Assembly: GCA_017453065.1 (NCBI GenBank)
Contig: JAFTKW010000015.1
Location: 310,001 to 374,000, forward strand
From: Lachnospiraceae bacterium
GTDB taxonomy: Bacteria > Bacillota > Clostridia > Lachnospirales > Lachnospiraceae
Direction of reading: 5' to 3'
DNA length: 64,000 nucleotides
Program-made: the position numbers and the translations under genes
Shown: positions 30,980 to 63,589 of the stretch, in pieces
Position numbering within the stretch: the first letter of the stretch is position 1
Layout: every line of letters starts with the position of its first letter
The notes under the pieces: generated by a model
What the model was told of the DNA's origin: nothing
The model's database searches: none
Seen by the model: only the letters and a program-made list of their open reading frames with translations

Positions 30980-33637
30980 GTGTTTAGTAGCAGGTTAACT
31001 GAGCCAGCGGAAAGAACACAAGATTTGTCAGTGAATGATTCCATTAACAATGAAATTCTTCAGCAGTTGCAAGACGAATTTTGTAAAGCGACTGGCTTAT
31101 ATGCTCTTACTTTGGATGCATTTGGGGGATTGCGTACAAAGATGTCTGGTGCGAAACCTGGCATGGAGTATATGGAAAAAGTATTCAGCGAGCAACGCTG
31201 CAGACAATTGTATGAGCGCGTTGCAGGTAATTCGCTTGAGGATTTTGTAGTAGAGGATATATACGGTACTACAATTAAGATGGCTGCCATTGCAATTGCA
31301 GCTAAGAACGTTAAGAGTTTAATCTGGATATTGGCGTATCCAGTGGAGAATGAAGAGGATGAACAACACTTTTTCGCAGCAATAGAAATGATGCGTCATA
31401 CAAGTATCATTACTATGGAAAACAAATTGTCCTGCATAGGAGCGGAAGCAGAGATGTATCGCAACCGTGTGGATGAGGAGGAAATGGAAAAAACGAAGGC
31501 TCGCATTGATGCCATGACCAGCGTGGTGGAACTTTTGGATGATGAGGAAGCCTTTGACGATGTAATGCGAAAAGTCTTGTCAGTTTTGGGATCTCATTTG
31601 TCTGTATCTAGCGCACAGATTTTTAGACTCAATGTAGAAAAACAAACCATGGATGTGGTTACGGAATGGCTAAGCCAAGGAACCATTTCCAGTTTTGATA
31701 AGACACAGAACATTCCGATGTATCCTTTTTTGAACGTGGAAAAACCACTGGTTATGGGAACTGATGGGATGCAGGGGCATTTGGATGAGCCTACGTTCAG
31801 ATTGTATGGAATCCGTGGTGTTATGGTGTTCCCGTTGGAGAAAAAGCAGAGTGGCACCATGGTGCTTTGTCTTTGTGAGCAAGACAAAAACAGACTGTGG
31901 CAAGTGGAGGAGGTTCGGTTTGCTTCGGACGTATCCAAGATTCTGCAGAGCATCGTGACCAGACGAAGTCAGAAGAACTCTTTGATGAATTCTTATACTT
32001 CTATGGAGACAGTACTTGACAACATCAGTTGTTGCATTTATGTCAGGGATTTAGAGTCTGGACAGGTTTTGTTCACTAACCGCATGACCAAGACTCAGTT
32101 CAGCGGTGAACTGCGAGATGGAACAATGCAGCGGCTTTTAGACTCCGCTATGATACAGGAGCGTAGAGATGGTGCATACGAAGTGTTCTATGAGGACAGA
32201 GGCCGTTGGTATGATATGATGTATACACGTATCAATTGGGTCGACGGTAGATTAGTAGAACTGTATTCTTTGTATGACATTACTGACAAAAAGATTTATC
32301 AGCGAAAGATAGAACAGCAGGCGTACACAGACTTTTTGACAGGTCTATATAATCGTATGTGCTGTGAACGTGATATGGCATGGCATTTGGATGATGCCAA
32401 GAAACGTGGTGTGCAAGGCGGTATCCTGTATTTGGATTTGGACGATTTCAAACACATCAATGATGGTTTGGGACATCAGTACGGAGACGTTCTTTTGAAA
32501 TCCATTTCCAACAGCCTGCGCCGAATTGATGGTATTCAAAAGACCTGTTACCGCATGGGCGGTGATGAGTTCGTCATAGTAATTCCAGCGGAGCATTATG
32601 ATAGACTGGATGGTATTCTGGAGGATATCAAACAGATTTTTGCAAAGCCTTGGTTTTTGAAAGATGCAGACTATTACTGCACTATGAGTATGGGTATCGT
32701 AAGTTTCCCGCATGGGGATGACACGGTACAGGATTTGATTAAAAAAGCTGATATTGCCATGTATGAGGCCAAGAAAACTGGTAAAAACCGTATGGCCAAA
32801 TACACAGACAGTCTGGAGTCAACTTCTGGCAAGCGACTTGACATGGAAAAAAATATGCGTGACGCTACTGTGGCAGGATTTGGCGAGTTTGAAGTATACT
32901 ATCAGCCAATTATTGACATTCAGAGAGATGGAACTCCTTGTGCAGGCGCGGAGGCACTGATTCGTTGGAACAGTACGGAGCTGGGATTTATTTCACCAGC
33001 AGAGTTTATTCCACTTGCAGAATATTTGGGCTTGATTAACCCGATTGGTAACCATGTACTGAAATCTGCTTGTGAGACTTGTAGGTATTGGAATGAGCAT
33101 GGATATCCAAATTACAAGATTAACGTTAACCTGTCTGTAGTGCAGCTTTTGCAGGCGGACGTGGTGGATATTGTGCGTAAGACCTTACATGAGACTGGTA
33201 TCAATCCACGGAATCTTACCTTGGAAGTTACCGAGAGTTTGGCCATCAATGATATGGAACGCATGAAAGAGATTTTGGGTAGTATCAAGGCGCTTGGCGT
33301 TCGTATTGCTTTGGATGATTTTGGAACAGGATATTCCTCCCTCAATCATATCAGAGAGATTCCGTTTGATGTTATCAAGGTGGATCAGAGTTTTGTCAGA
33401 GATTTGGCAGAAGACGCTTATTCACAGTCCTTTATCAAACTGGTGTCTGAACTTGCAGAGACTATCGGCGTAAGTATTTGCGTGGAAGGTATCGAGACAC
33501 AAGAACAGTTCAAGGTACTAGAAGGCATGAGGGTGCGCATGGTTCAGGGCTATTATTTCGACAGACCGCTAACCAGAAGACAGTTTGATGCTAAATATGT
33601 ACATAAAGATGTTCAAAATTGCGTGGAAATTCGGTAA
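30980..33637 (+). CDS. GGDEF-EAL cyclic-di-GMP enzyme with sensory N-terminus
   Basis: An 885-residue cytoplasmic protein. The first 145 residues look like a PocR-type sensory domain (LQDEFCKATGLYALTLDAFGG). A coiled stretch, a GAF-like domain (about 180-330) and a PAS-like domain (about 340-440) follow. The cyclase domain has intact GGDEF at 527-531 (RMGGDEFVIVI); the phosphodiesterase domain has EAL at 658-660 (AEALIRW) and DDFGTGYSSL. Both activities are therefore possible. Start is GTG 30980 with AGGAGG 11 bases upstream, a long spacing. No ATG fits. A cre site upstream suggests control by carbon supply. Confidence 0.94.
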   Translation: MFSSRLTEPAERTQDLSVNDSINNEILQQLQDEFCKATGLYALTLDAFGGLRTKMSGAKPGMEYMEKVFSEQRCRQLYERVAGNSLEDFVVEDIYGTTIKMAAIAIAAKNVKSLIWILAYPVENEEDEQHFFAAIEMMRHTSIITMENKLSCIGAEAEMYRNRVDEEEMEKTKARIDAMTSVVELLDDEEAFDDVMRKVLSVLGSHLSVSSAQIFRLNVEKQTMDVVTEWLSQGTISSFDKTQNIPMYPFLNVEKPLVMGTDGMQGHLDEPTFRLYGIRGVMVFPLEKKQSGTMVLCLCEQDKNRLWQVEEVRFASDVSKILQSIVTRRSQKNSLMNSYTSMETVLDNISCCIYVRDLESGQVLFTNRMTKTQFSGELRDGTMQRLLDSAMIQERRDGAYEVFYEDRGRWYDMMYTRINWVDGRLVELYSLYDITDKKIYQRKIEQQAYTDFLTGLYNRMCCERDMAWHLDDAKKRGVQGGILYLDLDDFKHINDGLGHQYGDVLLKSISNSLRRIDGIQKTCYRMGGDEFVIVIPAEHYDRLDGILEDIKQIFAKPWFLKDADYYCTMSMGIVSFPHGDDTVQDLIKKADIAMYEAKKTGKNRMAKYTDSLESTSGKRLDMEKNMRDATVAGFGEFEVYYQPIIDIQRDGTPCAGAEALIRWNSTELGFISPAEFIPLAEYLGLINPIGNHVLKSACETCRYWNEHGYPNYKINVNLSVVQLLQADVVDIVRKTLHETGINPRNLTLEVTESLAINDMERMKEILGSIKALGVRIALDDFGTGYSSLNHIREIPFDVIKVDQSFVRDLAEDAYSQSFIKLVSELAETIGVSICVEGIETQEQFKVLEGMRVRMVQGYYFDRPLTRRQFDAKYVHKDVQNCVEIR

Positions 33638-33685
33638 ATATGAGGTTGAAAAACCACCTTTAAACGTGTTAGTATTACATTAGTA

Positions 33686-33770
33686 GTTACGCAACTGGCG
33701 GAAAACAGGAAACTGTGGTGGGGCTAACCCACAGGGAGCGTAGCCAATGATGAATGCCGACCGCCTGGGC
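33686..33770 (+). promoter_or_regulatory. ZTP riboswitch (pfl motif)
   Basis: The conserved 5' half appears as ACGCAACTGGCGGA, closed by TACGC (33688-33692) pairing with GCGTA (33738-33742) next to GGGAGCG, and the conserved 3' half as CCGCCTGGGC (33761-33770), which forms the pseudoknot in this class. ZTP riboswitches sense ZTP/ZMP that accumulates when 10-formyl-tetrahydrofolate is short. The downstream genes make IMP from AICAR (ZMP), exactly the expected target. Confidence 0.95.
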
Positions 33771-33806
33771 GAACACTATTAATAGTGCCGCTCAGGCGGT
33801 TTTTGT
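33760..33806 (+). terminator. Expression-platform terminator of the ZTP riboswitch
   Basis: ACCGCCTGGGC (33760-33770) pairs with 33790-33800 (one G-T pair), enclosing a small extra hairpin, followed by five T residues. The 5' arm is the conserved 3' part of the aptamer, so ligand binding and termination are mutually exclusive. Confidence 0.92.
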
Positions 33807-33818
33807 TATGGCAACGAG

Positions 33819-33919
33819 GCAAGCGTCCGAGCGATAGCTCGGTACGGATGAGGTCTTGAGCATTCTGCATGCTTGCATGCGAAGAATGTAAAAGACATTA
33901 GACGTAGTGAGACGCTTGC
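33819..33919 (+). other. Branched structured element in the purO leader
   Basis: A 9-bp outer stem (33819-33827 with 33911-33919) encloses one hairpin CGAGC-GATA-GCTCG (33828-33841) and a second, longer arm built of three stacked helices: GTCTT/AAGAC (33853-33857, 33892-33896), CATTCT/AGAATG (33861-33866, 33883-33888) and GCATG/CATGC (33867-33871, 33876-33880). It lies after the ZTP terminator and before the start codon, so it is transcribed only on read-through. Together with the riboswitch it accounts for most of the gene-free stretch 33638-34031. I do not recognise the class. Confidence 0.65.
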
Positions 33920-34031
33920 AGAGTGGACATTTGACGACTGCTAATCAGAGTGAGATATGCGAAGTATATCGAATCTCCGTTTTTTGTGGCGAATGAATAG
34001 TGTAACCTATATTTATACGGAGGAATGAAAG

Positions 34032-34745
34032 ATGAATCTATTATCACTGAAACAGGAACTTGAAAACAATGCTTACCCAGGAAGAGGTATTGTGATCGGC
34101 AAAACTCCAGATGGTAAGAAGGCAGTGACTGCTTACTTTATCATGGGAAGAAGTGTAAACAGCCGTAACAGAGTATTTGTGGAAGAGGGACAAGGCATTC
34201 GCACAGAGGCTTTTGATCCAAGTAAGTTGGAGGATCCAAGCCTGATTATTTACGCGCCAGTAAGAGTACTTGGAAACAAGACTATCGTAACCAACGGAGA
34301 TCAGACAGATACAATCTATGACGGTATGGACCAGCAGCTGACATTTGAACAGTCCTTAAGATGCCGTGAGTTTGAGCCAGACGGCCCTAACTACACACCT
34401 AGAATCTCTGGTGTAATGCATATTGAGAACGGCAAGTACAACTATGCTATGTCCATTTTAAAGAGTAACAATGGAAACCCAGACGCTTGCAACCGCTACA
34501 CATTCGCTTATGAGAATCCAGTAGCAGGTGAGGGCCACTTTATTCATACATATATGCACGATGGCAATCCACTTCCTAGCTTTGAAGGCGAACCAAAGTG
34601 GGTTGAGATGATGGATGACATGGAAGCATTTACTCAGATGCTTTGGGAGTCCTTAAACGAAGAGAACAAGGTTTCCTTGTTTGTGCGCTACATTGACATC
34701 GCAACAGGTGAATACGAGACCAAGATTGTGAACAAGAACCAGTAA
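34032..34745 (+). CDS. purO: IMP cyclohydrolase, archaeal PurO type
   Basis: Closes the ring of FAICAR to give IMP, the last step of purine synthesis. The 237-residue product fits the PurO fold, not the MGS-like cyclohydrolase domain of bacterial PurH: AYPGRGIVIGKTPDG, AYFIMGRSVNSRNRVF, YDGMDQQLTFEQSL and PNYTPRISG are family features. AICAR formyltransferase follows 61 bases later. Both are under the ZTP riboswitch, which confirms the pathway. ACGGAGGA precedes the ATG. Confidence 0.93.
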   Translation: MNLLSLKQELENNAYPGRGIVIGKTPDGKKAVTAYFIMGRSVNSRNRVFVEEGQGIRTEAFDPSKLEDPSLIIYAPVRVLGNKTIVTNGDQTDTIYDGMDQQLTFEQSLRCREFEPDGPNYTPRISGVMHIENGKYNYAMSILKSNNGNPDACNRYTFAYENPVAGEGHFIHTYMHDGNPLPSFEGEPKWVEMMDDMEAFTQMLWESLNEENKVSLFVRYIDIATGEYETKIVNKNQ

Positions 34746-52241: not shown

Positions 52242-52270
52242 TGCGGGACCGTCACTGGTCCCGCATTTTT
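52242..52270 (+). terminator. Terminator of the uracil permease gene
   Basis: A 9-bp GC-rich stem (52242-52250 with 52257-52265), six-base loop and five T residues. Confidence 0.92.
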
Positions 52271-52322
52271 GTGATGGCGACCGCTCATCAGGGCGAGATT
52301 CGCCGACCGAAGGAGAAGGATT

Positions 52323-63394: not shown

Positions 63395-63414
63395 GATGAA
63401 GAAAATAATAGAAC

Positions 63415-63507
63415 CGCTAGGGGAGCACATTGCTGAGATTGGAACTAGCCTAGGAAAGTTCCTAACCCTCATTACTTGACCCGGACAATGCCGGCGTAAG
63501 GAAGCAC
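63415..63507 (+). promoter_or_regulatory. TPP riboswitch (THI element)
   Basis: Conserved elements appear in order: GGGGAGC, GCTGAGA (63432-63438), ACCCT in the middle, CTTGACCCGGACAATGCCGG and CGTAAGGAAGC. These match the thiamine pyrophosphate aptamer. It should repress the downstream thiamine transporter gene when TPP is plentiful. Confidence 0.96.
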
Positions 63508-63589
63508 ACCTATGTTGAAACTACGTTTGTGGATTCGATAACATAGGTTATTTATGTGTTCCTCCTCGCGCAGCGAAGGAGGATTTTTT
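63508..63589 (+). terminator. Expression platform: stem plus terminator that contains the thiT ribosome binding site
   Basis: A 9-bp stem (63508-63516 with 63540-63548) follows the aptamer. Then 63560-63569 pairs with 63573-63583 with one bulged A, followed by six T residues. The 3' arm contains AGGAGG (63577-63582), the only binding site for thiT, so the hairpin can both end transcription and hide the site. Confidence 0.85.

Follow-up and report, generated by a model that had tools for sequence, protein, structure and literature searches.

The window analysed here is a 64,000-nt (64-kb) stretch of the genome of a Lachnospiraceae bacterium (hereafter, the host genome), and the locus of interest lies between a riboswitch and a gene resembling purO. 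A gene encoding a GGDEF/EAL-type cyclic di-GMP protein (30980–33637) is located directly 5′ of the riboswitch, and no ORF of 60 aa or more was found in 33638–34031. A TPP riboswitch is also present in the window at 63409–63519 (RF00059, 57.4 bits). The features of the locus are as follows.

33681–33777, + strand: ZTP (ZMP/ZTP, pfl) riboswitch aptamer (RF01750, 56.8 bits, E 1.4e-06)
33759–33804, + strand: intrinsic terminator of the ZTP riboswitch with its T-tract, the putative landing site (stem 33759–33801, T-tract 33800–33804)
33804–33980, + strand: long-arm copy of a terminator-following structured repeat (end-to-end match of covariance model R1)
33809–33813, + strand: 5′ strand of stem P0, TGGCA (partner 33939–33943, TGCTA)
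33819–33919, + strand: branched element, the variable inner arm of the repeat (fold z −7.0, stem pairs)
33820–33828, + strand: 5′ strand of family stem P1 (partner 33925–33933; eight of nine positions pair)
33946–33979, + strand: 3′ hairpin H2, weakened in the window copy, then a T-tract (R1 alignment and folds)
34032–34745, + strand: downstream purO-like IMP cyclohydrolase gene (NF003167/TIGR01922, E 3e-13 / 1.7e-11, both below the curated cut-offs)

The ZTP terminator is strongly folded (−29.5 kcal/mol, z −5.4 against shuffles) and was also scored as a terminator-like site. Beyond it, the first-pass annotation had described an unrecognised branched RNA-like element between the ZTP switch and purO, and both the fold and the placement were confirmed. 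The minimum free energy of 33819–33919 was −48.4 kcal/mol, and none of 200 dinucleotide shuffles was as low (mean −26.7, SD 3.1). A 9-bp outer stem (GCAAGCGTC/GACGCTTGC), in which 33819–33827 pairs with 33911–33919 entirely through Watson–Crick pairs, encloses a CGAGC-GATA-GCTCG hairpin at 33828–33841 and a long arm at 33843–33906 composed of several stacked helices with internal loops between them. As a unit, however, the interval 33819–33919 proved too narrow, because the element that recurs elsewhere spans 33804–33980. The 9-bp stem and the family stem P1 compete for one 5′ strand (region 33819–33827); the predicted energies of the window copy were −62.7 kcal/mol when unconstrained (with the 9-bp stem), −61.4 kcal/mol with P0 and the 9-bp stem, and −59.5 kcal/mol with P0 and P1.

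When the genomes of relatives were searched by BLAST with 33811–33990, its 3′ portion was found to recur elsewhere in the host genome and in genomes of the same genus, and the lined-up recurrence sites revealed a common element starting directly behind a terminator. A search of the host genome with another copy returned 48 matching pieces at E ≤ 1, and the 5′ motif TTATGGCGACGAGG (up to two mismatches) occurred there at 55 sites, compared with 14 for the reversed pattern. Alignment A1 consisted of 63 short-type copies (92–98 nt, both ends present) chosen by their end motifs from the host genome and several other Lachnospiraceae, with the window copy left out. R1, the covariance model built from A1, matched the window at 33804–33980 over model positions 1–98 of 98 (52.9 bits, E 5.6e-11), with no other match inside the 64-kb window at E ≤ 1. 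The family is one of short (about 90–180 nt), non-coding, strongly structured dispersed repeats that occur in gut bacteria, mainly Lachnospiraceae, and no description of it was found in open-licence PMC text. A full copy comprises a 5′ stem-loop (outer stem P0, a conserved internal loop, and the variable arm P1) followed by the 3′ hairpin H2. In the host genome, copies of the short type (about 98 nt) occur beside others of about 133 nt and beside the long-arm type. The latter is represented by the window copy, L038, L057, L064, and L099, all from this genome; this count of five is the union of three scans over loci mostly chosen by short-type sequence, and more may exist.

In A1, 86.7% of the cells of P0, the P1 arm, and H2 were paired, and both sides had changed in 117 cells (shuffles, 39; slid versions, no more than 27). 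A second alignment, A2, contained 30 divergent copies from outside the R1 training set, none identical to any A1 row. Here, both-side changes were found at all 33 of 33 pairs, 89.9% of the cells paired, and 252 cells had changed on both sides (shuffles, 80; slid versions, no more than 62), counts that lean towards the model because A2 was aligned to R1. H2 was among the stems that covaried across the family in A2. Because P0, P1, and H2 all covary, the folded form, whether as RNA or as single-stranded DNA, appears to have been selected family-wide. The innermost pair of P0 was G-C in 51 and A-T in 10 of the 63 A1 copies, and it is A-T in the window copy. The internal loop between P0 and P1 (ACGA/GAC) was highly conserved in A1 and, to judge from its letters, could form tandem G-A pairs. 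The A1 consensus of H2 contains a single unpaired base, and the end-to-end pairing of terminal inverted repeats (A1 columns 8–15 with 89–96) showed no covariation.

The first-pass annotation had offered three possible identities for the branched element, namely a tandem ligand sensor, a processing site, and an inserted repeat; of these, the evidence favours the inserted repeat. A sensor would act together with the ZTP riboswitch in controlling purO, and a stable branched fold in leader RNA that is made on read-through into a purine gene, with an H2-like hairpin and then a T-tract downstream, is compatible with such a role. However, H2 of the window copy with its T-tract, considered as a second terminator and folded alone, was not above shuffle stability (z −0.5) and was rejected as such. 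PurO was present in 95 of the 101 genomes of the genus, and 90 purO loci were examined (five of the 95 PurO genomes were left out, and locus L118 ends before its leader). The ZTP core motif, counted as a motif match with up to three substitutions, was found in 62 of the 90. A strong R1 match between the ZTP terminator and purO occurred in only 2 of the 90 loci (the window and L132), and weak R1 matches occurred in the purO leaders of two more (L346 and L386). The two strong matches belong to different species and different arm types, L132 being a short-type copy unlike the long arm of the window copy, and most ZTP leaders contain only a short gap at this point. The leader of L133 is empty whereas that of L132 is filled, with 130 of 135 bases identical over the aptamer and terminator; L106, which has the closest PurO (92%), is likewise empty in comparison with the window. 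No target-site duplication was seen by eye in L132/L133, a single clean pair whose downstream flanks also differ, so that the exact right end is uncertain. The two strong matches among 90 loci, together with the empty relatives, therefore indicate sporadic insertion at the purO site.

Elsewhere in the host genome, copies lie near unrelated genes, including those for UvrB, tRNA pseudouridine synthase, class II tRNA synthetases, and SpoIIGA. Pfam analysis of ten downstream ORFs, chosen from 16 and located up to 900 bases downstream but not always adjoining the copy, assigned a family to eight, none of them a purine gene. The first-pass annotation had proposed a covariance-model search of genomes and a look for further copies, and these located dispersed copies in the host genome and its relatives. 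It had also named two outcomes that would speak against a sensor, failure of covariation and scattered repeats unrelated to purine genes: the copies were indeed scattered, whereas the family stems covaried strongly. Because of the rarity at purO loci, the empty near-identical leader, and the dispersed copies, a second purine sensor is extremely improbable, and the element is very probably a copy of a dispersed non-autonomous mobile repeat that landed after the ZTP terminator.

Other long inserts, differing between species, were noticed by eye in the gap between the ZTP terminator and purO at L114, L128, L335, L339, L340, L345, L346, and L384. The insert of L114, 3′ of the ZTP terminator, reads GTAACTATTCAGAGC...GAATAGTTAC, and the gap of L346 holds three tandem copies of a 120-nt unit.

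The position of the repeat was markedly non-random. Over all genomes, 102 of 117 distinct copies had a terminator directly 5′, the criterion being a T-tract preceded by a hairpin with a folding energy of −10 kcal/mol or lower; among control positions in the same loci, 18 of 828 random ones and 76 of 468 that were T-rich passed this test. A stricter rule was satisfied by 87 of 117 copies and by 2.3% of 10382 random positions, and by 5 of 114 when applied at the element's other end. The 117 copies were drawn from 204 listed R1 matches after opposite-strand shadows, duplicate locus ids, partial matches, and matches below 39.6 bits had been dropped. By eye, the 15 of 117 failures included 5′-damaged copies, copies in which the model start lay inside the T-tract, weaker hairpins, and some without a clear terminator; no clear terminator was present upstream of L284, L292, or L252. 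In the host genome, where a slightly wider motif was used, 34 of the 52 distinct sites in the collected loci followed a hairpin and T-tract, and, of the remaining 18, four were second tandem copies and the rest looked by eye like chance or coding occurrences. Divergent copies were viewed in 20 regions, taken from one genome of the same genus and from other genera; by eye, most had a hairpin and T-tract just before the copy, and both copies examined in G671, from another family of the class, were directly preceded by them. The orientation relative to the terminator was constant wherever a terminator was present. Regulatory terminators were also among the sites, namely those of ZTP riboswitches (the window and L132) and T-boxes, and the host-genome copies L014 and L057 begin 22 and 42 bases, respectively, past T-box matches.

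Such near-exclusive placement, together with the strong structural conservation, the compensatory changes in divergent copies, and the shortened copies that retain the 5′ end beside the terminator, would also suit a selected cis-element at terminators (a back-up stop, an insulator, or an RNA-processing signal) rather than a mobile parasite. However, the distribution is patchy. R1 matched 27 of 101 genomes in the genus (E ≤ 1e-3), 47 of 299 in the family (E ≤ 1e-4), and 4 of 391 sampled across the class, counts that include the host genome and were made with stricter filters that lose weak matches. An exact pattern was found in 74 stretches of named genomes, with titles such as Lachnospiraceae bacterium, Kineothrix, Roseburia, Butyrivibrio, Lachnospira, or simply “bacterium” or “Eubacteriales”. 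It was found in no stretch of viral contigs, and a viral origin was discarded. Kineothrix sp. MSJ-39 carries seven copies with a mean identity of 95.9%, and copies within a genome can be up to 99% alike, suggesting recent spread. This likeness and the empty orthologous site argue against a selected cis-element, as does the occurrence behind attenuators, where one more stop signal should, by inference, impair expression. A selected cis-element is therefore unlikely as an account of the family, and the mobile repeat remains the preferred reading; a role in RNA at some terminators may nevertheless exist. As in MITE-like elements, the repeat is dispersed and multi-copy, lacks an ORF, has a strong secondary structure, and shows an empty/filled orthologous site (in one pair).

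IS200/IS605-type (Y1) transposons insert in an oriented manner, and REP/RAYT and IS200/IS605 derivatives are hairpin-based non-autonomous repeats without target duplication. The oriented insertion of the present family, with no duplication seen, and the single unpaired base in the consensus H2 would thus be compatible with a remnant or passenger of a Y1 transposon; the alternative of a group IIC intron draws on the use of intrinsic terminators, after which such introns insert (PMC4424553). However, Y1 transposase (PF01797) was detected in only 13 of 20 carrier genomes and was undetected in the host genome, G032, G061, G331, G240, G172, and G413, which sets the family apart from REP/RAYT and IS200/IS605 derivatives and led us to reject this enzyme as the partner. 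Group II reverse transcriptase (TIGR04416) was rejected as well, being no commoner in carriers than in non-carriers (13 of 20 each); it was undetected in the host genome, G331, G310, G240, G413, G172, and G032. Both enzymes were undetected in six of the 20 carriers, including G331 and G240, which are 100% complete, and the host genome, which is 84.7% complete. Furthermore, Rfam cmscan of the window and 20 loci returned no group II family, and a likeness of H2 to group II domain V, seen by eye only, was dropped. Group IIC introns are ribozymes with a reverse transcriptase, whereas the repeat is about 90–180 nt long and non-coding and, unlike these introns, occurs in genomes lacking any group II reverse transcriptase match.

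No autonomous version with an internal gene was encountered near copies consisting of the 5′ end only: a second element end was absent within 1.5 kb of nine such copies and within 0.4 kb of a tenth, and no transposase was recognised beside the nine, whose neighbouring ORFs look by eye like ordinary host genes. The Y1 transposase and group II reverse transcriptase profiles revealed no consistent mobilising enzyme across the 20 carriers. A remnant or passenger of a Y1 transposon or group IIC intron is accordingly unlikely, and the non-autonomous mobile repeat remains the preferred reading.

Besides the ZTP riboswitch, the best Rfam match at the window element was Clostridiales-1 RNA (RF01699, 19.4 bits), which is given as a table row in Weinberg et al. 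2010 (PMC2864571). Scores of 26–30 bits (maximum 30.2) were obtained for 4 of 18 copies scanned, all four of the 133-nt type; six of the seven outer-stem pairs of the model can form in the window element, with letters that differ from the consensus, and the apical GCUUGCA loop is common to both. Nevertheless, no score reached the gathering cut-off (48 bits), an 8-pair arm of the model is left wholly unpaired in the window element, and the host genome gave no Clostridiales-1 match at E ≤ 0.01 under the stricter filters. Only 2 of 27 Clostridiales-1 copies (27 of 30 loci were used) followed a terminator, in contrast to the 102 of 117 copies of the repeat family. Membership in Clostridiales-1 is therefore very unlikely, and the latter is better regarded as a distant relative with scores under the threshold. 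The two families are alike in being dispersed, multi-copy, and structured within the same genus, where Clostridiales-1 was detected in 48 of 101 genomes at E ≤ 0.01, 24 of them over the cut-off (stricter filters, with weak matches lost). Although typed in Rfam as an sRNA gene, Clostridiales-1 has the character of a dispersed repeat within the genus (e.g., L209–L238); the 4.1-Mb genome G006 alone contains at least 25 matches.

The apparent second RNA switch at this locus can thus be explained as a landed repeat. We infer that the repeat moves to new sites as a non-autonomous mobile element, relying on machinery that would recognise terminator hairpins with their T-tracts, in DNA or RNA form, and insert the element there; one long-arm copy would have been inserted behind the ZTP riboswitch’s own terminator. 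Lying behind this terminator, the element would be transcribed with purO only after read-through, and it probably has little or no sensing role, since the ZTP decision has already been made by then. More broadly, the repeats may represent an undescribed class of mobile structured elements that home to intrinsic terminators in a fixed orientation, a proposal that we advance tentatively and hold somewhat less probable than its negation. The machinery moving them would differ from both Y1 transposases and group II reverse transcriptases and might act via an RNA or single-stranded DNA intermediate; the ACGA/GAC loop would be a candidate protein-binding site, and the rewiring of riboswitch and T-box leaders would be a by-product. 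These observations raise the question of what recognises intrinsic terminators as a target in genomes where neither tested enzyme type was found, and they counsel caution, as a structured RNA that in Lachnospiraceae separates a riboswitch from the gene it controls may be a terminator-seeking repeat.

In lifestyle, the closest analogue is the BOX repeat of Streptococcus pneumoniae, which is described with RUP and SPRITE as a small, dispersed, strongly folded repeat (PMC3049150). The inner modules of BOX vary in number, and one BOX sits between the two T-box leaders of the trp operon, resembling the window copy behind its riboswitch. BOX and RUP fold with their terminal inverted repeats paired, whereas the end-to-end complementarity of the present family is without covariation; fixed insertion behind terminators, a trait of the present family, is unreported for BOX, RUP, or SPRITE in the passages considered.

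Incomplete and compound copies were also observed. Many copies consist of only the 5′ end beside a terminator (by eye; in the host genome, L039, L041, L044, L045, L048, L049, L050, L052, L054, and L090), and fewer consisting of only the 3′ end were noticed by eye. One further piece lies within the window; it was recognised from its sequence and as a BLAST piece (G000:C12:362275-362303), and R1 did not list it at E ≤ 1.

52270–52304, + strand: remnant of the same repeat with an internal deletion, immediately 3′ of another terminator-like hairpin

At L017, L028, L031, and L042, the 3′ end of one copy passes directly into another copy (CTCTG, followed by a start resembling TGATGGCGACGAG), with one TG shared between them.
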